Under the pieces are notes generated by a model that was not told the origin of the DNA, made no database searches, and saw only the letters and a program-made list of their open reading frames with translations. From positions 136,159 through 200,158 of the forward strand of contig CACAND010000001.1 of the NCBI GenBank assembly GCA_902533795.1: 64,000 nucleotides of DNA, in the 5' to 3' direction. The translations under genes were made by a program, and so were the position numbers. Shown in pieces: positions 5,021 through 24,665 of the stretch. The stretch's first letter is position 1; each line of letters begins with the position of its first letter. The stretch comes from an uncultured Candidatus Actinomarina sp. (lineage in GTDB: Bacteria > Actinomycetota > Acidimicrobiia > Actinomarinales > Actinomarinaceae).

Positions 5021-5389
5021 TTAACTATTTGTTTCTTCTGACTCTTTTTCTTCTTGTTCATACCTACTTAAAGCAAGCATAAACATGATGAATAGAATCA
5101 ATGAACCTGCAAAATATGTAAGAGGTATGATTCTGATCTCAAGTGCATTTAAACCGTCGATTGATGCAGGAGCAGGGCCTCTTGGTGCATAAAGAAGAAA
5201 AAGGAAAGAATTAATAACTAGCCAACCAAAAGTAGCAGCACCAACAACTAAAAATCCAAGCCTTCTACCAAGATTTGTTGCATTCAAGACAAAAGTTGAG
5301 CCAAAAAAAGAAAGTATGAAAAATATAAATAGAACTATTCCGGTAAAAGTAAGGTTGGACGATAAAAGTGTCCTCATTATTTCACGCAT
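5021..5389 (-). CDS. small membrane protein at the end of the bc-complex operon
   Basis: 122 aa, about 3 TM; overlaps the diheme cytochrome c gene by 8 bp. Confidence 0.65.
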   Translation of the reverse strand: MREIMRTLLSSNLTFTGIVLFIFFILSFFGSTFVLNATNLGRRLGFLVVGAATFGWLVINSFLFLLYAPRGPAPASIDGLNALEIRIIPLTYFAGSLILFIMFMLALSRYEQEEKESEETNS

Positions 5390-6806
5390 CAGGTGTCATT
5401 CCTCTCAAATAATCTATTACTAATTCTATATCTGACTGTGGAAGCACTGCACCAAAACCAGGCATTTTTCCACCACCTACTCCATTCACTCCATACCCTT
5501 TACCGTTTACGGAACCATTAATGATAAAGTCAATAAAATCATCACGTTCTTTAAATTGAATGTTTACTCTTCCTCCCCTTAAAGCAGGCCCCAAGCCACC
5601 TGAGCCAATTTGTTTAGTGTAAGCAGCACCAGCAGAATAACCTGCAGTATGACATCTTGCACAATATGCATTAAATATACCTACGGCTCTAATTGCTTTA
5701 TCGTAATCTCCGTCGAAAGTTGAATCAGCTATATCTTGGAAATCGATAAGCCACAGCTTTTGTTGGTATGCATTTTCTAAAAATGCTAAACCTGTTTCAG
5801 CTTCATCCATAAACTTGTCATATCCATCAGTAAGTATTCCAAGATTAATAACTTTTGTTTCAAGTTCAGACAAGAAACCTCTAACTATAGAAGCATCTTT
5901 CCTTCCAGGAATCGATTCCTCCTCGTCTGGATTAAGATTTAATACTGGAGTTCCTAACATTTCAGTTATCGTTTCACTGTATGCTGAGAGATCAGTTTCA
6001 ACACTGTCATACAATCCATCTTCATCAGTATCAATACCGCTTTGTCTAGAAATTAACGCTGAGACGACCTCAACTGCTTCAATTGCGATTGGTAATCTAA
6101 TTGGTGCCATTTCTATATCGTTTATTAACTCATTTTGTTTGGCTATTTCACTCTCAACTTGTAAATCGGAATTTTCTATTCTTAATAATGATGAATTTAT
6201 ATTTCCCTCAATTTCAAGCAATTCTTCATTTTGAGGAATTTGAAAGGAGTGTAAATACTCAATCAAATCACTTAATTGGCCGTCGTTCATAGGTCCACCA
6301 CCTTTAAGACCCCAAGCTGGCATTGGTGAATTTGCTCTTCCATAGATAAGCCAATATAAAACTTCATCATCATCGTATCTGTAAAATACATCATTAATAG
6401 CAGGGGCTACCCAAGTAACACTTACCCCACTTCTTTTTTCAACATACGATGCAGCACCACCACTTCCATCTGCACCATGGCAGTTACCACACCCAAATTC
6501 TTCATATAAATGTTGCCCTCTTTCTACAGAAACATCATCAAATTCCTCTACAAAGCTTTCTTGTCTAGCTGGTTCACCTAAATAATATAAAGGAATCATA
6601 ATTGTTAAAAGAGAAGCTAAAACAACAGCAACTGACAAAATCTTATCTAGCTGAGTTGTCTCAAGCTGGTCATCAGGTAAATATTTTTGAAGATTTCTTG
6701 GTACTTTTTTAATCTTTCCTGCACCTCGAAATCCGACAGCAGAAAAGTATGCAATTGCGCCGATAACAGCTAAAGCAATAAGTGTTATAAAAAGTGAACT
6801 ATTCAT
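5382..6806 (-). CDS. membrane-anchored diheme cytochrome c of the bc complex
   Basis: CGNCHGADGSGG and CARCHTAGY heme c sites with SPMPAWG and GKMPGFG Met ligands; N-terminal TMs; internal DTDEDGLYDSVETDL. Confidence 0.9.
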   Translation of the reverse strand: MNSSLFITLIALAVIGAIAYFSAVGFRGAGKIKKVPRNLQKYLPDDQLETTQLDKILSVAVVLASLLTIMIPLYYLGEPARQESFVEEFDDVSVERGQHLYEEFGCGNCHGADGSGGAASYVEKRSGVSVTWVAPAINDVFYRYDDDEVLYWLIYGRANSPMPAWGLKGGGPMNDGQLSDLIEYLHSFQIPQNEELLEIEGNINSSLLRIENSDLQVESEIAKQNELINDIEMAPIRLPIAIEAVEVVSALISRQSGIDTDEDGLYDSVETDLSAYSETITEMLGTPVLNLNPDEEESIPGRKDASIVRGFLSELETKVINLGILTDGYDKFMDEAETGLAFLENAYQQKLWLIDFQDIADSTFDGDYDKAIRAVGIFNAYCARCHTAGYSAGAAYTKQIGSGGLGPALRGGRVNIQFKERDDFIDFIINGSVNGKGYGVNGVGGGKMPGFGAVLPQSDIELVIDYLRGMTPDA

Positions 6807-6808
6807 TA

Positions 6809-7687
6809 TTATTCCTCAGGTGCGGCAATAGTAATACATGAAATACCTTGGGGATATTTAACTGACATTCCAGCAGCACGTGGAGATTCTATGATAGAAC
6901 CCGTATCAATAATAAATTTTCCAGATGAGTTTACATTCACTATGAATCTATCAAGATTACGAGGTGCTGGTCCAGCGTAGTATTCACCAACCATATTATA
7001 TTTTGATCCGTGACAAGGACATTCAAACCCTTGAGAGGTATTACACCAAGGGACTCTGCAACCAAGGTGTACACACCTTTGATAAACAGCAACAAGTCCA
7101 TCAGCAACTGTTCCACTATCAGAAAATTGTGAGTTTCCTGATTGTTCGAATGGTAATACATAAGCTCTAGCAGCTGGGATGAAAGCAGGAATCACAGATC
7201 CATCAGATTGAAAAATTTGGTCTTTTAAATCTTGAACTCTTCCTGCGTCAATCTTAGAACCAAAACCTCCAGAGACTTTAGGATAGAAAAATCCCAGCCA
7301 GGAAATTAATTGAATTCCGGCGAAAGCGCCGAAAGTAATTCCTAATGCTTTTCCCAGGAATTGTCTACGAGTCATTCCAGCTTCTTCTTCTGATATTTCT
7401 TCGTAAATAATTTCTTCTTTTACTTTTATTGATCCATCTGTTTGAATATCATCTTTTTCTTCAATATCTTCAGATAAATTTTCTTCTTCATTTTCAGGTT
7501 CATCAGGAGCTAAAAAGTTTGTTTGTGATTTATCTACTTTTAGTGCTCTCTTATCTAAATTTTTCTTCCAATTCAGCCTTTTATTTACAGCTTTAGGCGT
7601 TCTACCAGTGACTACTGCAATGATTCCAATGACGCCAAATAAACCGATAAAAGCAATTGCAATAAATGAAAGTTGTACCAGGCTCAT
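6809..7687 (-). CDS. Rieske [2Fe-2S] protein of the bc complex
   Basis: CVHLGCRVPWCNTSQGFECPCHGSKYN cluster-binding motif; Tat-like TRRQFLGKALG after an acidic linker. Confidence 0.93.
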   Translation of the reverse strand: MSLVQLSFIAIAFIGLFGVIGIIAVVTGRTPKAVNKRLNWKKNLDKRALKVDKSQTNFLAPDEPENEEENLSEDIEEKDDIQTDGSIKVKEEIIYEEISEEEAGMTRRQFLGKALGITFGAFAGIQLISWLGFFYPKVSGGFGSKIDAGRVQDLKDQIFQSDGSVIPAFIPAARAYVLPFEQSGNSQFSDSGTVADGLVAVYQRCVHLGCRVPWCNTSQGFECPCHGSKYNMVGEYYAGPAPRNLDRFIVNVNSSGKFIIDTGSIIESPRAAGMSVKYPQGISCITIAAPEE

Positions 7688-8439
7688 TCGAAATGGACCC
7701 AGTCAAGTAAGTCATCAAACCAAACACCATCAATCCAAGGATATGTCCAGTTCCAACCTGGGCCTCTAAATAATATACCAATTAAACTCAATGTTCCCGC
7801 TCCTGCCAGAAAAAATGTCCAAAGCATAATTGCATATTTTCTTTTTGACGGTTTATTATCCTTATTTCTATCTATATATGGAATAGCCATAAATGCTGCC
7901 ACACCAATAATTAAAGGAATCATAACTCCAGCAATCTGTGGATCCCAGTATGAAAGTAATTCTTGTAAACCAAGGAAATACCATGGTGCTTTTGCAGGGT
8001 TTGGAGTAATGTTTGGATTTGCTTCTTCAAGTAATGGGGCCTGCAAAATTGCGCTAATAAAAATAAGAAAAGCTGTCATAGCCATCAAAGATATAAATTC
8101 TGGAAGCATTAAATGTGGCCAGGTGTTTACTTTATCTACTGGCTCAGAAGTAGGTTTTTGTATCGGTTTGGCTTTTACAACTGTCAATAGTCTCTGTGTA
8201 ACTCTTGTTTCTGGAGCAAAATCAACTTCAGCTGGTATATCAGCTTTTACAGCTGCTGCTGGTGCTGGTGCTTCTTTGACTTCAATTGGTTTTACATCTA
8301 TAACTTCTGGTTCTTTTGAAATAGTTGTAGGCTCTGCCTCACCCTTCATTTCAGCTAATGCTTGCTCTACAGATATACCTAAAGCTTTTGCTCTTGCCTC
8401 AGCTGTTTTTATTAATAAATGTTCTGGAATATCAACCAT
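7684..8439 (-). CDS. cytochrome b C-terminal (subunit IV-like) protein with N-terminal PExL/AEARA tag
   Basis: APWYFLGLQELLSYWDPQIAGVMIPLI (PDWYF/PEWY-type Qo motif region); start placed at ATG 8439 (MVDIPEHLL) since the longer ORF overlaps the upstream gene. Confidence 0.9.
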   Translation of the reverse strand: MVDIPEHLLIKTAEARAKALGISVEQALAEMKGEAEPTTISKEPEVIDVKPIEVKEAPAPAAAVKADIPAEVDFAPETRVTQRLLTVVKAKPIQKPTSEPVDKVNTWPHLMLPEFISLMAMTAFLIFISAILQAPLLEEANPNITPNPAKAPWYFLGLQELLSYWDPQIAGVMIPLIIGVAAFMAIPYIDRNKDNKPSKRKYAIMLWTFFLAGAGTLSLIGILFRGPGWNWTYPWIDGVWFDDLLDWVHFE

Positions 8440-8450
8440 ATATATAAAAA

Positions 8451-9230
8451 CTAGAGGGGACCAGAGATCCCTCCATCCTTTCTGACTCTCCAAAAATGGA
8501 TCGCCATAAATATAACGATTATGAACGGGAGAAATAAAACATGTAAAACATAGAAACGGAGCAAAGTAGCTTCTGTTGCTTCTAATCCTGCAAATAAGGC
8601 AAATTTTACCTGAGCGCCAATTACAGGTGTGTAGCTAGCCATGTTTCCTCCAACGGTAACCGCCCAAATAGCTAACTGGTCCCATGGAAGAAGATACCCA
8701 GTAAAAGATAAAAGCAAGGTTAATAAAAGCAAGATAACCCCAATTACCCAGTTAAACTCTCTTGGTGCTTTATATGCTCCATGATAAAACACTCTTGACA
8801 TGTGAAGGAAGACTACGATGACCATTATATGTGCAGCCCACCTGTGCATATTTCGTACTAATGAGCCAAAAGCTATTGAAGTTTGTAGAGATTGAATATC
8901 AACATAAGCCATTTCAGTTGGTCTAAAATAAAACATTAACCATATTCCTGTAATTGTAAGAACAATAAATGTAAAAAAGCTTAAACCTCCAAGACATAAT
9001 GTGTAAGACAATCTCACAGCATGTCTTTTAACCTTTACTGGGTGAAGATGGTACAAAACATTGTTCATAACAACATATGATCTGTTTCTTGGGCTGTCGG
9101 AATATCCTTTTCTGAATGGTGATCCTGGACGAAAGATACTTCCCCATAATGAGCTTTCCTTCAGTGAGTCCCCTAGACCTGCACTTATATCTTTTACACG
9201 ATCTCTAAACTTTATTTTTTCATTCTTCAT
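8451..9230 (-). CDS. cytochrome b N-terminal (b6-like) subunit
   Basis: HRWAAHIMVIVVFLH (14 spacing) and HVLFLPFIIVIFMAIH (15 spacing, b6f type) heme ligand pairs; ends KDGGISGPL. Confidence 0.95.
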   Translation of the reverse strand: MKNEKIKFRDRVKDISAGLGDSLKESSLWGSIFRPGSPFRKGYSDSPRNRSYVVMNNVLYHLHPVKVKRHAVRLSYTLCLGGLSFFTFIVLTITGIWLMFYFRPTEMAYVDIQSLQTSIAFGSLVRNMHRWAAHIMVIVVFLHMSRVFYHGAYKAPREFNWVIGVILLLLTLLLSFTGYLLPWDQLAIWAVTVGGNMASYTPVIGAQVKFALFAGLEATEATLLRFYVLHVLFLPFIIVIFMAIHFWRVRKDGGISGPL

Positions 9231-9686
9231 TTAAAGTCTTCCATATATATATCCATGTCTATCATTTCTTTCTCCAGAGTCTTCATCCCATGGAGCTTCA
9301 TAGACACCGTTATTAATTGCTGCATCTGCCAACGATCCTGCAAATTTACCCAAAGAAATTACTCCTGTTGGACATCTATCAACACATAATGCACATCTAG
9401 TACATGCATCTTCGTCAACAACAAAAAATCCTGATTCATTTTCTTCCATACTTGGTGCTTCAACATTGATAGAGTCTTCAATAGCATCTGTTGACAAGTA
9501 GTGAATACATTTCCATGGACATATATCAACACAACCTTCGCATAAAATACATTCTGCTTCATCTATGTGTAGAAATTGTTTCGGTCTTACTCTTGATGAA
9601 ATCTTTTCAGCATCAACCATGGCAAGGTTGTATTGTTTTTCAAATTCAGGCATCTCAATAAGTACTTCTGATTTAGCCATCAGCAC
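9231..9686 (-). CDS. 2x[4Fe-4S] ferredoxin-like protein in the bc-complex operon
   Basis: CILCEGCVDICPWKC and CTRCALCVDRCP motifs. Confidence 0.92.
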   Translation of the reverse strand: MLMAKSEVLIEMPEFEKQYNLAMVDAEKISSRVRPKQFLHIDEAECILCEGCVDICPWKCIHYLSTDAIEDSINVEAPSMEENESGFFVVDEDACTRCALCVDRCPTGVISLGKFAGSLADAAINNGVYEAPWDEDSGERNDRHGYIYGRL

Positions 9687-10266
9687 CTACCTTTACTACT
9701 TCTTTTCCATAATCAGAAATTCTTGTTTTACCTCTCTCTTTTGCTTCATTGATATCCTGAATTAAATATCCAACAACAAAAGCGGTTACTAATGCACCTG
9801 TAGAAATTCCAAGTTGAATAATATCTTTAAGTGCTCCAAGACTGAGACCAATTTCATTACCAAGAAAAAGAATAGGCGGAAAGTTTATAAATTCTCTTTG
9901 ATTAGTCCATTCAAGAGGTCCCTGAGAAAGGTTAAGCCATTCAGATGGTAAAACTCCAAAAATTAGTGCGAATTGGATCCAGCTTAAGAAAGCAAGATAT
10001 GTTGCTCTTGCCCATGTCATCTCTGTATCTTCCCAAGCTAACATTGCCATTCCAATCAAAAGAAGTTGCCCAGCTCCAAATGCTATTAGTTGGCCAATAG
10101 TTTGCATTAACCATCCTCGAGGCATCCAATTAAAGTAATCAATTACTTCCCCCTCTGGAAAACCAGCAAAATGTGCAATAATGACCCCGATAGTGACACC
10201 ACCGATTCCAGCAAATATTAAAGCTACGCCGATTTTGTATCGATTAGTAAATATAAAATTTAACAA
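9673..10266 (-). CDS. membrane protein of unknown function, first gene of the bc-complex operon
   Basis: 197 aa, about 4 hydrophobic helices; overlaps the ferredoxin gene. Confidence 0.7.
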   Translation of the reverse strand: MLNFIFTNRYKIGVALIFAGIGGVTIGVIIAHFAGFPEGEVIDYFNWMPRGWLMQTIGQLIAFGAGQLLLIGMAMLAWEDTEMTWARATYLAFLSWIQFALIFGVLPSEWLNLSQGPLEWTNQREFINFPPILFLGNEIGLSLGALKDIIQLGISTGALVTAFVVGYLIQDINEAKERGKTRISDYGKEVVKVGADG

Positions 10267-10435: not shown

Positions 10436-11839
10436 ATGAAAATAAAAATTTTTCCAAAAAATGAACAAGAATTTTCAAAATTTTTTATTGTTGTTATGCC
10501 CTTTTTATTATTACTTTTTGGAGGTATATCACTATTAAAAGAAGCTTATTTTCTTTTTGTGAATATTCTTCCCCAAAATATTGTATTTAATTACGGTTTT
10601 CTAGATATATTAAATAATCATATAACTTATAGCCTTTTGCTATCATTCTTAATCGTATTTTTAACTTCATATCTTTTACCAAAAACTCTTGGCAGGAGGT
10701 TGGTTATATTTCCAATTTTCTTCCTAACCTCACTAGGTGTAATAGGTTTAGAGTCTTTAGATTTATTATTAGGGTTTTTGTTTCCCAATAACTTTTTTTC
10801 TTTTGGTAATACAAGTTATACAATGCTCTTCAAAATTTTAATTTTGTTTGCTTTTGTAAGTCTTTTATCAATAAATATTCTTGCCAAAAAAGAGGCTTCC
10901 ATGTTTATAAGTGCGCAATATTTATATGGAGCAGCTTTATTTTATGCTCTTTCATTAGTTATTTATCGTGGAAATTTTTCTGTATTTAGTGATAATTTTT
11001 TTATTAACTCTATGTATGTATCTACACATATATATGTTGGATATTCTTTTGTATTTTTAGCATTGCTTCATTTTATGACTACAAAGGGAATCAACGGAAC
11101 ATTATATAGTAAAACTTTAGGATCAATTAGTTTTTGGGGATATCTATTTTTATTGCCATGGACTAACTTTAAATTTTATTTTGGTTCAGTTTTGCCTAAT
11201 TGGATTGAAAACATTTCACTTTATTTATCATTAAGCTTGGCTCTACCACTGCTTGCAGTCACAGTTAATTTTTTTAGAACTGTAACAACTAGAGATGAAG
11301 AAAATAAAATAATTTATGGCCTTGTTAGTTTTTCGTTTGGAATTTTCCTAGTAACTAATCTCTTTCAAATTGTTTCATCATTATCAAACATTATCCCCAT
11401 ACTTAGTCTTACAAGTTTTGAAATTGCAATAAGATATGGCTACGTTTTTAGTTCTATATTGATATCTATTGCTTTTATTTATTATCTCATTCCAAAGATC
11501 TTTGGTAGAGAAGTAAAATATACAAGACTTGAGTCTCTTACTGCCTATACTTTGAAAATTGTTGTATCTGGCACATTATTCTCTAATGCTTTAATAGGTA
11601 TAATTTCTGGGTATTCGTGGAATGCTGGTGCAAATGCAGGAAATCCAACAATATATGGTGAAGGTTTTGCGTTGTTATGGTCGCTAATAAGTACTCCTTT
11701 ATCAGTAAATTTGTTTTTATCAGTTTTGCTCCTTTTACCATTTTTTCTATTCTTTATATCTGTGATAAAAGCCATAGTAAATGGAGAAATCACAGAGGCT
11801 GAAACAATAGAGCTTACAGAAGAAGAGCTTCCAGTATGA
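10436..11839 (+). CDS. heme-copper oxidase subunit I (CcoN)-like membrane protein lacking canonical metal ligands
   Basis: Collinear CcoN landmarks (NNHITY early helix; STHIYVGYSFVFLALLHF; FWGYLFLLPWTNFKFYFGSVLPNW; IAFIYYLIPKIFGR), followed by CcoO- and CcoP-like genes; only three His in the protein. Confidence 0.7.
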   Translation: MKIKIFPKNEQEFSKFFIVVMPFLLLLFGGISLLKEAYFLFVNILPQNIVFNYGFLDILNNHITYSLLLSFLIVFLTSYLLPKTLGRRLVIFPIFFLTSLGVIGLESLDLLLGFLFPNNFFSFGNTSYTMLFKILILFAFVSLLSINILAKKEASMFISAQYLYGAALFYALSLVIYRGNFSVFSDNFFINSMYVSTHIYVGYSFVFLALLHFMTTKGINGTLYSKTLGSISFWGYLFLLPWTNFKFYFGSVLPNWIENISLYLSLSLALPLLAVTVNFFRTVTTRDEENKIIYGLVSFSFGIFLVTNLFQIVSSLSNIIPILSLTSFEIAIRYGYVFSSILISIAFIYYLIPKIFGREVKYTRLESLTAYTLKIVVSGTLFSNALIGIISGYSWNAGANAGNPTIYGEGFALLWSLISTPLSVNLFLSVLLLLPFFLFFISVIKAIVNGEITEAETIELTEEELPV

Positions 11840-12056
11840 GTGAACTCTTAAGTAAAGTCGCAGAAATATTAAATGCTCCAGAATCGTTGGTACAACGATC
11901 TGCAGAGGCTAGAGCGGAAGCATCAGGTAAAAGTGTTGATGAGGTTTTACAATCTTGGGCAGGTGGTGAAAGTGTAGCTGCTGTCGAAAAGAGTGTGGAA
12001 GAACCAGCACCTGTGGAAGAACCAGCACCTGTGGAAGAACCAGCACCTGTGGAAGA
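11836..12056 (+). repeat. 221-bp direct repeat, copy 1
   Basis: Base-by-base identical to 12629-12849; encodes the N-terminal tag and Pro/Glu linker. Confidence 0.97.
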
Positions 12057-12636
12057 ACTCACAACTAAAGATGAATCTTCGATTGATGTTCAAGAAGATG
12101 ATGATGAAGAAATTGTTCAACTTTTAATAGAAGAAGAACTTATAGAAGCTAAAAAAGAGAGTTCATTTGCAGTCTTAATGGGAGTAATTGGAGTTGTAGT
12201 ATTCACATATTTATTTGCTTTTTCAATTCCAAAACAACAAAGCGAAGATCTCGTATTGGAATCTTTAAATAATTCCGTACGCGTAAGTGAAGAAATTCTT
12301 GAAGGTGCAACAGTTTATAATCAACTTAATTGTCAATCATGTCATACACAGAATGTGAGGGTGCTAATACCTGATTCACAAAACGGAAAAGTTTTAAAGA
12401 ATAGGTTTGCAAATAAAAATTTAATTCTTAATACTGGATTACTAAGGTTAGCTCCAGATTTATCTACTCTTGCATCCAGAGAGCCAACAAATGATGGGGA
12501 CTGGCTTAAAAAATATTTGACCGATCCATCATCAGTAAAAGAAGAGATTCCGCATCCATCAATAAATTTCTTAAATGAACAAGATTTAGATTATTTGATA
12601 ACTTATTTATTATCTTTAGGAAGTACAAATGAGTGA
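11836..12636 (+). CDS. CcoO-like membrane-anchored monoheme cytochrome c with N-terminal tag
   Basis: GATVYNQLNCQSCHTQNVR...LAPDLSTLA resembles CcoO GRDIYVREGCYNCHSQMIR...GPDLARVG; TM after a Pro/Glu linker. Confidence 0.82.
   Translation: MSELLSKVAEILNAPESLVQRSAEARAEASGKSVDEVLQSWAGGESVAAVEKSVEEPAPVEEPAPVEEPAPVEELTTKDESSIDVQEDDDEEIVQLLIEEELIEAKKESSFAVLMGVIGVVVFTYLFAFSIPKQQSEDLVLESLNNSVRVSEEILEGATVYNQLNCQSCHTQNVRVLIPDSQNGKVLKNRFANKNLILNTGLLRLAPDLSTLASREPTNDGDWLKKYLTDPSSVKEEIPHPSINFLNEQDLDYLITYLLSLGSTNE
11995..12048 (+). repeat. 18-bp tandem repeat x3 (gtggaagaaccagcacct; VEEPAP)
   Basis: Direct reading; same array at 12788-12841. Confidence 0.95.
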
Positions 12637-12849
12637 ACTCTTAAGTAAAGTCGCAGAAATATTAAATGCTCCAGAATCGTTGGTACAACGATCTGCAGAG
12701 GCTAGAGCGGAAGCATCAGGTAAAAGTGTTGATGAGGTTTTACAATCTTGGGCAGGTGGTGAAAGTGTAGCTGCTGTCGAAAAGAGTGTGGAAGAACCAG
12801 CACCTGTGGAAGAACCAGCACCTGTGGAAGAACCAGCACCTGTGGAAGA
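12629..12849 (+). repeat. 221-bp direct repeat, copy 2
   Basis: Identical to 11836-12056, offset 793 bp. Confidence 0.97.
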
Positions 12850-13582
12850 GATTGAAAAAAAAGAAGATAAAAATGAAATTGTTTCGGAAGAAAAAGAAAA
12901 ACCACAGACATTATCTTCTTCAAGAAATACCAAAAAAATAACTCAAAAAATAGCTTTTGCTAATAAAACATTAAATATCAAAGTTAATGCAGAAACTACT
13001 TTGCCTAGATGGTTAAATGTAAGTTTTGTCCTTATTCCTTTATTTATAGTAATTGGAATCATAAACACATCATCGACTCAAGAATGTGGTGAAAACGGCA
13101 TTCTTGATATAGATAGAAAATCTCAATTGACAATTAATTGTGATGGTTCTGCTTTTGAAGGCAAGGGTGTTGGCTCAGCAAGTTCTATAAATTATATTGC
13201 TCTTGGACAACAAATATATTCTGGAGCAGCTGCTTGTGCAGGTTGCCACGGTGTGAATGGAGGTGGTGGTGTTGGACCAGCATTTACTGGGGGTGAGCTC
13301 TACACAACATTCCCAACTTGTAGTGATCATGCACTTTGGATTGAGCTAGGATCAGCAGGATGGCAAGCTGATGTTGGGCCAGCTTATGGTGCCGAAGATA
13401 AAGTTTCTATTGGAGGAATGCCAGGTTTTGCTGGAAAACTTACCGAAGATGAACTTTATGCAGTAGTTGTATTTGAAAGGGTTGTCTTCGGTGGTGGGGA
13501 TACAAATGAAGTATTAGAAGATTGTGGTCTTCTAGAAACTGAAGAAGAAGTAACTGCTGAAGCAGTAGAAACATCAAGTTAA
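12629..13582 (+). CDS. CcoP-like membrane-anchored monoheme cytochrome c with identical N-terminal tag
   Basis: LPRW preceding TM (CcoP-like), CAGCHGVNGGGGVGPAFTGG heme site, GGMPGFAGKLTEDEL. Confidence 0.85.
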   Translation: MSELLSKVAEILNAPESLVQRSAEARAEASGKSVDEVLQSWAGGESVAAVEKSVEEPAPVEEPAPVEEPAPVEEIEKKEDKNEIVSEEKEKPQTLSSSRNTKKITQKIAFANKTLNIKVNAETTLPRWLNVSFVLIPLFIVIGIINTSSTQECGENGILDIDRKSQLTINCDGSAFEGKGVGSASSINYIALGQQIYSGAAACAGCHGVNGGGGVGPAFTGGELYTTFPTCSDHALWIELGSAGWQADVGPAYGAEDKVSIGGMPGFAGKLTEDELYAVVVFERVVFGGGDTNEVLEDCGLLETEEEVTAEAVETSS

Positions 13583-21248: not shown

Positions 21249-24200
21249 GTGGCAAAAAATTCAGGGCTAAAGATAAATAGGAAATATACCTCACCTGGTG
21301 ATCCTTATAAAGATATTGTTTGGGAGAAAAGAAGCTCCAAGATAGCCAACCCGGATGGATCAGTAGTTTTTGAAATGAACGATGTAGAAATCCCATCTAC
21401 CTGGTCACAAGTAGCAACAGATATTATGGTTTCAAAATACTTCAGAAAAGCTGGAGTTCCTCAAGTAGATGAAGATGGAAACGAATTGCTTGATGAAAGT
21501 GGACAAAAAATCTTAGGTCCTGAAACATCATCAAAACAAGTATTTAATAGACTTGCCGAAACATGGAGACATTGGGGAGAAAAAACAGGATACTTTGCCA
21601 CTGAAGAAGATGCTCAAGCATTTGAAGACGAACTAAAGTACATGCTTGCAACACAAATGGCAGCACCTAATAGTCCACAATGGTTTAACACAGGTTTAAA
21701 TTATAAATATGACCTTACAGGTAAAGCACAAGGCTTTTGGTTTGTTGATCCTGCAACAGGTGAGTTAACTCCAGGAGAAGATTCATACTCAAGGCCTCAA
21801 CCGCATGCTTGCTTTATTCAATCTATTGATGATGACCTTGTGAATGAAGGGGGGATCATGGATTTGTGGGTTAAAGAAGCAAGACTGTTTAAATTCGGAT
21901 CTGGTACAGGTACAAACTTTTCAAATTTAAGAGGAGAAGGAGAAAAACTTTCAGGTGGTGGAATGTCATCAGGAGTTATGTCTTTCTTAAAGATCGGTGA
22001 TAGAGCTGCTGGCGCAATTAAATCTGGAGGAACTACCAGAAGAGCAGCAAAAATGGTAATCCTGGATCTTGACCACCCAGATATCGAAGATTTTATAGAG
22101 TGGAAAGCAATTGAAGAAGATAAGGCAAGAGCACTAATAGCAGCCGGTTATCCGTCAGATTACAACGGAGAAGCTTACGAAACTGTTTCTGGTCAAAACT
22201 CAAACAACTCTGTAAGAGTCCCTAATGATTTTATTAAAGCCCTTGAAGCAGATGGAGATTGGGAACTTACTGCAAGAACAGATGGATCAACTATGAAAAC
22301 TGTAAAGGCTCGAGATCTTTGGAACAAAATTGCAGATGCAGCATGGAGATGTGCAGATCCAGGTGTTCAATTCAATACAACCATTAACGAATGGCATACT
22401 TCACCAGCTGGTGGTCAAATTAGAGCATCAAATCCATGTTCTGAATATCTATTTCTAGACAATACAGCTTGCAACCTTGCTAGTTTGAACTTAGTAAAGT
22501 TTTACGATGATGAGAAACAAGTTTTTGATATTGATTCTTATAAACATGCCTTGAGAATTTGGACAGTTGTGTTGGAAATATCAGTTGAAATGGCACAATT
22601 TCCTTCAAAAGAAATAGCCCAAGGTTCATATGATTACAGAACACTTGGTCTTGGTTATGCCAATTTAGGTTCGCTTTTAATGAGAAAAGGAATCGCCTAT
22701 GACTCTGAGCTTGGAAGGGCAATAGCTGGTGCCTTAACTGCAATGTTAACTGGTGAAGCCTATAAAACTTCTGCAGAAATGGCTAGTGTTGTAGGACCAT
22801 TTCCTAAATATTCCGAAAATAGTGAAAACATGCTTCGCGTAATGAACAACCACAGAAAAGCTGCATATGACTCTGGAGATTATGTAGGAATAAGTCACGA
22901 CTTGCTTCCTATTAATCAAGACCTCTGCCCTGATGATTTATTAAAAGGTGCTCAAGCTTCATGGGACGGGGCTGTAGAACTAGGTGACAAATATGGATAC
23001 AGAAATGCACAGGCAACAGTGTTGGCCCCTACAGGAACAATCGGATTACTCATGGATTGTGATACAACTGGTGTTGAACCTGATTTTGCATTAATGAAAT
23101 TTAAAAAGTTAGCCGGTGGTGGTTATATGAAGATCGCCAATCAATCAATAGGCCCAGCATTAAGTGCTCTTGGATACGATAGCGAGCAGACAAGCGATAT
23201 TATTCAATACGTGATCGGATCCATGTCTCTCAACGGCTCACCGTTTATCAATAGTGAAACACTTAAAGAAAAAGGTCTTAATGATAATGATATAGAGAGT
23301 ATTGAAAGTTCCCTCCCTGGAGCATTTGAAATTCAACATGCATTTAATGTCTTTGTTGTCGGTGAAGAAACCATGCAAAGGTTGAACATCTCTGAGGAGG
23401 ATTACACATCTTTTGACTTTAACCTTTTAGAGGAATTAGGTTTTACAAAAACTGAAATTGCTGAAGCAAACAAATATATTTGTGGAACGCAAACAATTGA
23501 GGGTGCTCCTCATTTACAAGACAAAGATCTAAGTGTTTTTGACTGTGCCAATAAGTGTGGAAAAGATGGAGAACGATTTATTCACTATATGGGTCACGTC
23601 AAGATGATGGCTGCTGCACAACCATTCATTTCAGGTGCAATTTCTAAAACAGTAAATATGCCTAATGAAGCAACAATAGAAGATATAGAAAATTGTTATT
23701 TTGAATCTTCTGGACTTGGAATTAAAGCAATTGCAATTTATAGAGATGGATCAAAAGCTTCACAACCGTTGTCTGCATCTTCAGATGATGGTGAATCTGA
23801 TGAAAGTGATCCTCAAGTTTCTGAGATTATTGAAAATGAATCTATGTTAATGCATGGAAACTTTGCTGCAGGAACAAGCCCAAGTAAAGCTTATGCAGGA
23901 ACAAATAGGCCTCGTTTCTTGTTACCAGAAAGAAGAGAAGGATGGACACAAGAAGCAAAGATTGCGGGTCATAAAGTATATCTAAGAACTGGTGAATATC
24001 CTGATGGAACACTTGGTGAAGTATTTATAGATATTGCGAAAGAAGGTGCCACCCTTAAAGGAGTATTAGGATGTTTTGCAATAGCAGTTTCAAAAGGTTT
24101 ACAGTATGGAGTGCCACTAGAAGAGTTCGTCGATACATTTACTTTTCAAACATTTGAACCACGGGGAATGGTTGAAGGACACGAAAACATAAAAATGAGT

Positions 24201-24665
24201 AACTCAATTATTGATTATGTTTTTAGAGCACTTGGTCTTGAGTACCTTAACAGGACTGATATTGTTCAGAATCCACCAAAAGAAGAGGTTAACGAACTTG
24301 AACAAGAGCCAAGTGCACCTGTTCAACAAGAGCCAAGTGCACCTGTTCAACAAGAGCCAAGTGCACCTGTTCAAGAACAATTAGTCGAACCAACAACTGA
24401 GGCAAATCAAATAGAAACAACTAATAGTTTTAAGGCGTCAGAACCTATATCTGAAGTTCAAGAAGTTCAGTTTTTGACAAAAGTTGAGGAAATTGAAACA
24501 ACCGATACAGCTGAAGCTGTATCAAATTCAGTAACAACAGTTCAAGAAGTCCTTGGTGACATGATGGGAGATGCACCTGCTTGTAATGAGTGTGGGCATA
24601 TAACAATAAGAAACGGTTCATGTTACAAATGCTTGAATTGTGGAAACTCTTTAGGTTGTAGTTAA
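21249..24665 (+). CDS. nrdJ: adenosylcobalamin-dependent (class II) ribonucleotide reductase
   Basis: NSPQWFNTGL, PHACFIQSIDD, GSGTGTNFSNLRG, SNPCSEYLFLDNTACNLASLNL, C-terminal CNECGHITIRNGSCYKCLNCGNSLGCS; GTG start. Confidence 0.97.
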   Translation: MAKNSGLKINRKYTSPGDPYKDIVWEKRSSKIANPDGSVVFEMNDVEIPSTWSQVATDIMVSKYFRKAGVPQVDEDGNELLDESGQKILGPETSSKQVFNRLAETWRHWGEKTGYFATEEDAQAFEDELKYMLATQMAAPNSPQWFNTGLNYKYDLTGKAQGFWFVDPATGELTPGEDSYSRPQPHACFIQSIDDDLVNEGGIMDLWVKEARLFKFGSGTGTNFSNLRGEGEKLSGGGMSSGVMSFLKIGDRAAGAIKSGGTTRRAAKMVILDLDHPDIEDFIEWKAIEEDKARALIAAGYPSDYNGEAYETVSGQNSNNSVRVPNDFIKALEADGDWELTARTDGSTMKTVKARDLWNKIADAAWRCADPGVQFNTTINEWHTSPAGGQIRASNPCSEYLFLDNTACNLASLNLVKFYDDEKQVFDIDSYKHALRIWTVVLEISVEMAQFPSKEIAQGSYDYRTLGLGYANLGSLLMRKGIAYDSELGRAIAGALTAMLTGEAYKTSAEMASVVGPFPKYSENSENMLRVMNNHRKAAYDSGDYVGISHDLLPINQDLCPDDLLKGAQASWDGAVELGDKYGYRNAQATVLAPTGTIGLLMDCDTTGVEPDFALMKFKKLAGGGYMKIANQSIGPALSALGYDSEQTSDIIQYVIGSMSLNGSPFINSETLKEKGLNDNDIESIESSLPGAFEIQHAFNVFVVGEETMQRLNISEEDYTSFDFNLLEELGFTKTEIAEANKYICGTQTIEGAPHLQDKDLSVFDCANKCGKDGERFIHYMGHVKMMAAAQPFISGAISKTVNMPNEATIEDIENCYFESSGLGIKAIAIYRDGSKASQPLSASSDDGESDESDPQVSEIIENESMLMHGNFAAGTSPSKAYAGTNRPRFLLPERREGWTQEAKIAGHKVYLRTGEYPDGTLGEVFIDIAKEGATLKGVLGCFAIAVSKGLQYGVPLEEFVDTFTFQTFEPRGMVEGHENIKMSNSIIDYVFRALGLEYLNRTDIVQNPPKEEVNELEQEPSAPVQQEPSAPVQQEPSAPVQEQLVEPTTEANQIETTNSFKASEPISEVQEVQFLTKVEEIETTDTAEAVSNSVTTVQEVLGDMMGDAPACNECGHITIRNGSCYKCLNCGNSLGCS
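24303..24374 (+). repeat. 24-bp tandem repeat x3 (caagagccaagtgcacctgttcaa) inside nrdJ
   Basis: Three perfect copies encoding QEPSAPVQ. Confidence 0.95.

Follow-up and report, generated by a model that had tools for sequence, protein, structure and literature searches.

The peripheral subunit-binding domain (PSBD) is a tiny helical binding domain associated with flexible Ala/Pro-rich linkers. It belongs to the E2 component of 2-oxoacid dehydrogenase complexes (PMC8421416). The encapsulation peptides of microcompartments are also short helical domains on disordered linkers, which self-associate as trimers and drive the co-assembly of enzymes (PMC12339742). A different means of holding enzymes together is found in Mycobacterium and Corynebacterium, where intertwined subunits and a diheme QcrC couple the bc complex to the oxidase in an obligate III2IV2 supercomplex (PMC8361435).

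Here we describe a short tag from a hitherto undescribed family, with members of about 40-50 residues, that recurs on respiratory proteins of an uncultured Candidatus Actinomarina species; three copies lie in the 64,000-nucleotide stretch of its genome that was analysed as a whole (hereafter, the window). No relative of the tag was found in Pfam, NCBIfam or the sequences of the PDB, where the only matches were spurious ones to designed repeats. A literature search for a respiratory tag in Acidimicrobiia returned nothing relevant, nor did the databases and literature searched hold a docking domain shared by complexes I, III and IV and a soluble ferredoxin reductase.

Genetic organization of the tagged genes

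The tag of the cytochrome b C-terminal subunit, MVDIPEHLLIKTAEARAKALGISVEQALAEMKGEAEP, lies at positions 8329 to 8439 on the minus strand and makes up residues 1-37 of the protein, as judged from translation, profile matches and hhalign alignment to the cytochrome c tags. The peptide quoted at these positions by the first-pass annotation matches the translation exactly, and the plus-strand reading is meaningless. The gene, cytbC (7684 to 8439, minus strand), starts with the ATG at 8439 and encodes a protein of 251 aa with transmembrane segments (TMs) at residues 114-132, 169-187 and 206-224 in a TM scan. Its C-terminal part matches Cytochrom_B_C (PF00032; Pfam 5e-7) and is the petD/subunit IV-like half of a split cytochrome b. 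A 76-aa tether rich in P, A, E and V (8101 to 8328, minus strand) leads from the tag to the first TM, and its C-terminal end is closed by a conserved pre-TM segment, TQRLLTVVKA....

The remainder of the bc cluster, all of it on the minus strand, consists of the untagged partner of cytbC, a petB/b6-like cytochrome b N-terminal half (8451 to 9230; PF00033), a 2x[4Fe-4S] ferredoxin-like protein (9231 to 9686; recognised by Pfam) that is kept in the bc clusters inspected, a conserved hydrophobic protein without a Pfam family (9673 to 10266), a Rieske protein (6809 to 7687; PF00355), a protein with two cytochrome c domains (5382 to 6806) and a small conserved protein, again without a Pfam family (5021 to 5389). 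In a divergent oxidase cluster on the plus strand, a COX1-like subunit (10436 to 11839; PF00115) is followed by two tagged, membrane-anchored cytochromes c, namely the FixO-like, mono-haem cytcA (11836 to 12636; TM at residues 111-129, CXXCH at 166) and cytcB (12629 to 13582; TM at 129-147, CXXCH at 203). The oxidase is called cbb3-like because cytcA is FixO-like, its Pfam match of 28.6 bits falling just under the cut-off of 29.6. The cytcA tag, MSELLSKVAEILNAPESLVQRSAEARAEASGKSVDEVLQSWAGGE (11836 to 11970, plus strand), was delimited by translation and an AlphaFold2 three-helix model, and the cytcB tag (12629 to 12763, plus strand) is identical to it. Another Actinomarina bin (G012; loci L143 and L144) possesses two complete, diverged sets of bc and cbb3-like oxidase clusters, both of them tagged.

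All three window copies have the arrangement that had been reported from the first reading of the sequence, with the tag followed by a P/A/E(V)-rich linker (76, 64 and 82 aa in cytbC, cytcA and cytcB) that runs to the first TM at residues 114-132, 111-129 and 129-147, respectively. In the four proteins measured, linkers span 64-82 aa, and P, A, E, V, T and S account for 61-77% of residues; this composition, together with the variation in length, suggests that the linkers are disordered. Elsewhere in the window, a ribonucleotide-reductase-like protein (21249 to 24665) has a QEPSAPVQ tandem-repeat linker before its zinc-ribbon-like C-terminal end, which resembles the tag linkers in style and has no tag match.

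Homology, fold and constraint

Class-wide profiles built independently from cytbC tags and from cytochrome c tags align with an hhalign probability of 98.7% (E=2e-16, 35 columns), and alignment to the tags of a caa3-operon protein gives E=2.8e-13. Thus the diverged third copy of the cytochrome c tag that had been proposed for cytbC is real, and the profile-profile homology whose absence would have told against it is strong. Reversed profiles, run as a control against 11,335 ORFs from the loci analysed, gave a best E of 0.45; because these loci were partly picked by the tag, the unbiased evidence is the whole-genome search described below. Among the tags, the RSAEARA stretch of the second helix is nearly invariant.

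For the cytochrome c tag, AlphaFold2 (34-row alignment) predicts helices at residues 3-12, 16-30 and 34-41. The model has a pTM of 0.66, and its block pLDDT is 94-96 across residues 11-40; the cytbC form begins at the second helix. A Foldseek search of the PDB gave no confident fold neighbour among its 11 matches to E=10. The nearest fold, the designed alpha/alpha toroid dTor_6x35L (PDB 4yxx), superimposes with a TM-score of 0.76 and an rmsd of 0.8 Å over 39 columns, but it is an artificial protein with 20% identity to the tag and a Foldseek E of 3.1, which is not significant. The resemblance offers only a hint that such helices may be able to pack side by side.

Across 31 distinct cytbC genes the tag has a pN/pS of 0.104 and the membrane domain one of 0.121, values of which the comparison alone is meaningful, synonymous sites being near saturation. 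The tag is under purifying selection and is as constrained as the membrane domain of its host.

Carriers and distribution

A profile search of the host genome (0.98 Mb in 13 contigs) returned exactly five tag matches, all at E<=1e-16, and no other match up to E=10. The five carriers are cytbC, the two cytochromes c, a membrane protein of a caa3-oxidase operon and KorA, the alpha subunit of a 2-oxoacid:ferredoxin oxidoreductase; the scatter over non-respiratory proteins that would have undermined the first-pass annotation is not seen. Two of these copies, located elsewhere in the genome, had been overlooked by that annotation.

The profile matches all 42 genomes of the genus and 119 of the 198 genomes of the class Acidimicrobiia (E<=1e-3), and in a phylum sample of 398 genomes matches are confined to this class; these tag counts are lower bounds, as many assemblies are incomplete and some contigs stop in tag DNA. 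Contigs that end inside the tag include G036:C2:1-72, G035:C10:2-79, G024:C3:3-104 and G017:C29:3-104, and the ends of G072:C8, G120:C58 and G120:C38 also fall there, presumably through disruption of assembly by near-identical copies. In 21 genomes of the class studied in detail, every assignable full-tag ORF is cytbC, cytcA, cytcB or the caa3-operon protein (tm372), with the exception of KorA in the window's own genome, and five others, left unassigned, are truncated by a contig end or a sequence gap in the same clusters. An independent scan of GTDB, which relied on one ten-residue pattern that distant relatives elsewhere could escape, found 81 tag ORFs, each of them cytbC or KorA (11 are cut short and were identified from their neighbours). 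The records are named as Candidatus Actinomarina and other Acidimicrobiia, with a few under other titles; horizontal spread to those titled Bacteroidetes or Acidobacteria was rejected, as they carry the same Acidimicrobiia-type bc cluster and are taken to be mislabelled bins. The tag thus occurs, almost without exception, on respiratory subunits and KGOR of a single bacterial class.

The caa3-operon protein has 372 aa, carries the tag at its N-terminus and is encoded by the last gene of the operon, where the genes ahead of it are taken to be ctaB, C, D, E, F and G. The gene itself lies at L133 6556-7674, tagged homologues are present in L102, L104, L106, L110, L112, L126, L129 and L150, and homologues across Acidimicrobiia are multi-TM proteins beside caa3-oxidase genes. 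Pfam gave nothing consistent for tm372, and its model, of middling quality (pLDDT 72), showed no fold recognisable by fold search.

In the window's genome the KorA tag lies near the C-terminus of a protein whose gene adjoins that of KorB, and it is 72% identical to the cytbC tag. This KorA is broken at the start of contig C12, such that an N-terminal tag cannot be judged there; the first 189 bases of the contig (L134 1-189; G000:C12) match KorA inverted, with the 5' part of the gene broken, and the join looks like an assembly or whole-genome-amplification chimera. Within one Actinomarina group, KorA is tagged at the N-terminus, the C-terminus or both, on long E/V/P-rich linkers, with about 750 residues separating the two tags of the doubly tagged form in one ORF. 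KorA lacks a tag at 22 other loci of the genus, where it has 616-631 aa. Tagged forms (L135, L137, L141 and L142) have a conserved charged tail, VERVTERVTERIIEKVDE...EEVKTDE, that is missing from the untagged forms and is possibly a second interaction element.

NuoI of complex I is tagged in one of the 30 loci inspected. Both this tag and the proximal linker are similar to the cytbC tag of that genome, a likeness that points to copying from cytbC. As neither the KorA nor the NuoI tag is universal in the genus, tagging of these two proteins is not essential. A complex I without NuoEFG and fed by ferredoxin was also considered; G038 has no nuoEFG between D and H (nuoA-D,H-L), but NuoF is present in 39 of the 42 genus genomes, and the idea was set aside.

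In both cytochromes c the only TM lies ahead of CXXCH (TM scan), and because the haem motif comes after this single TM, the tags are assigned to the cytoplasmic side. The N-termini of subunit IV proteins, KorA and NuoI are likewise on the cytoplasmic side. All tag positions are predicted to be cytoplasmic.

Sequence variation and copying between genes

The two window cytochrome c genes share 221 bp of identical DNA, covering the tag and proximal linker (11836 to 12056 and 12629 to 12849, plus strand), and the identity sets in precisely with the start codon. Over 120 bp the two tags do not differ at all in 14 of 21 genus clusters, and tags of different genomes have a median of 89 of the 120 positions in common. 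The pair is a case of concerted evolution, with gene conversion between neighbours probably acting as the mechanism of homogenisation.

A full-length tag is found across a broad set of families, often in tandem, reaching five copies on cytbC (G066) and three on cytcB (G042). Other families have a shorter core, M-x-E-[IV]-P-E-H-L-L-K-R-[AS], which usually occurs as a pair on cytbC and singly on cytcB. Among genomes of the class without a profile match, this core opens the split cytbC in 19 of 19 genes, one of them much diverged, and no convincing core motif was found in two fused full-length cytochromes b. The short-motif families are devoid of the third-helix region; a complete folded domain is therefore not needed in them. 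In one family the core also stands at the C-terminus of a protein of about 150 aa with weak, below-cut-off similarity to Pfam Nfu_N, which ends in VPAHLLERSRAARARLKG (L362-L365; G043, G048, G112 and G097) and may be an Fe-S carrier that bears the same docking helix. Where COX1 and cytcA are joined in one ORF (most clearly in L116), cytcA has no tag, as expected if the tag requires a free cytoplasmic N-terminus.

Function of the tag

The first-pass annotation had envisaged a mobile domain that brings subunits of the two complexes together at the cytoplasmic side. This proposal holds as far as sequence can take it, the cytoplasmic positions being predicted, but the carriers exceed two complexes, and the docking, that is, binding by the tags, is something we infer. 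They comprise the bc complex, the cytochromes c of the cbb3-like oxidase, the caa3-operon membrane protein, KorA and, once, NuoI. With modest confidence, we consider the tag on balance to be a tethered docking or clustering module that joins respiratory complexes and KGOR. A respiratory docking module should appear in homologous form on several components of the pathway and rarely elsewhere, which is the pattern found. The same reading draws on the conserved folded module, its flexible tether, the tandem repeats and the further gains of the tag by components of the same pathway.

Mechanistically, each tag would be a three-helix microdomain on a long flexible tether, displayed at the cytoplasmic face of membrane subunits or, in soluble KorA, at either terminus or both. 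Tags would bind each other or a common partner, with direct tag-tag binding slightly ahead of a shared receptor, and would thereby bring the bc complex together with the cbb3-like and caa3 oxidases, in some lineages also with KGOR and complex I, in a single assembly or patch. Such gathering could shorten the path for electrons carried by quinol, cytochrome c and ferredoxin. That these enzymes lie close to one another is plausible because KorA and NuoI act at the ferredoxin/quinone end and the bc cluster has a ferredoxin-like protein of its own.

It is also conceivable, if rather unlikely, that the tag is a localisation handle by which each carrier binds one membrane-domain or scaffold protein, bringing the complexes to the same cell site and not joining them to each other. 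One type of tag on unrelated proteins, at either terminus, would suit such a handle, and the near-invariance of RSAEARA fits a shared binding site. A search for a receptor gene found none, however, and no co-occurring candidate was identified; moreover, up to five tandem copies favour multivalent mutual binding, with which a receptor would still be compatible.

Less probable again is a handle for assembly or maturation, recruiting a haem, Fe-S or membrane-insertion factor during biogenesis and having no role in the finished complexes. Most membrane carriers bear the tag N-terminally, many of the carriers contain or adjoin haem or Fe-S centres, and the weakly Nfu_N-like protein with the short motif, known from a single family, also fits such a role and to that extent counts against docking. 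Yet soluble KorA can be tagged at both ends, about 750 residues apart, tagged cytbC is itself not an Fe-S protein, and the adjoining Rieske, ferredoxin-like and diheme cytochrome c proteins are without a tag. That the tag is a functionless coding repeat spread by recombination is scarcely credible, for despite the identical DNA shared by cytcA and cytcB and the evident transfer of copies from one gene to another, the strong purifying selection, class-wide conservation and restriction to respiratory hosts all speak against it.

Returning to docking or clustering, a bolder version, which we put forward only tentatively and think doubtful, is a common tag code in which mutually binding microdomains of one family would physically link 2-oxoglutarate:ferredoxin oxidoreductase and complex I with the ferredoxin-containing bc complex and a pair of terminal oxidases to form a tethered respiratory metabolon, any enzyme being recruitable by fusion to the tag. 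The tag provides a testable handle on the spatial organisation of respiratory complexes and a TCA-cycle enzyme in very small free-living marine bacteria, for which the natural forms of KorA and NuoI with and without it are ready-made comparisons, and a module of 45 residues might be used as an orthogonal means of bringing membrane enzymes into clusters.

Comparison with known systems

The likeness to encapsulation peptides lies in a short helical module, a linker that is here probably disordered, and attachment to several enzymes of one pathway. Those peptides, however, bring soluble cargo into a protein shell, whereas the hosts of the tag are mostly membrane subunits; and in place of the single amphipathic helix of an encapsulation peptide, the tag model has three helices (3-12, 16-30 and 34-41). 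With the PSBD the tag shares a small helical domain, a flexible linker and a link to a machine for 2-oxoacid oxidation, but the hosts differ. Membership of the PSBD family was considered and rejected, E3_binding being absent from the Pfam matches of 34 tag members at E<=1 and the PSBD fold from the 11 Foldseek matches in the PDB to E=10.

The III2IV2 supercomplex resembles the proposed arrangement in being an actinobacterial case of physical coupling between bc complex and oxidase, which for the tag we infer. A tethered tag was not found described for that supercomplex (PMC8361435), and the genomes of the phylum sample outside Acidimicrobiia are without one. The presence of the tag on several respiratory machines of one bacterial class, and on hardly anything besides, suggests an undescribed way of holding a respiratory chain together, at the inner face of the membrane.
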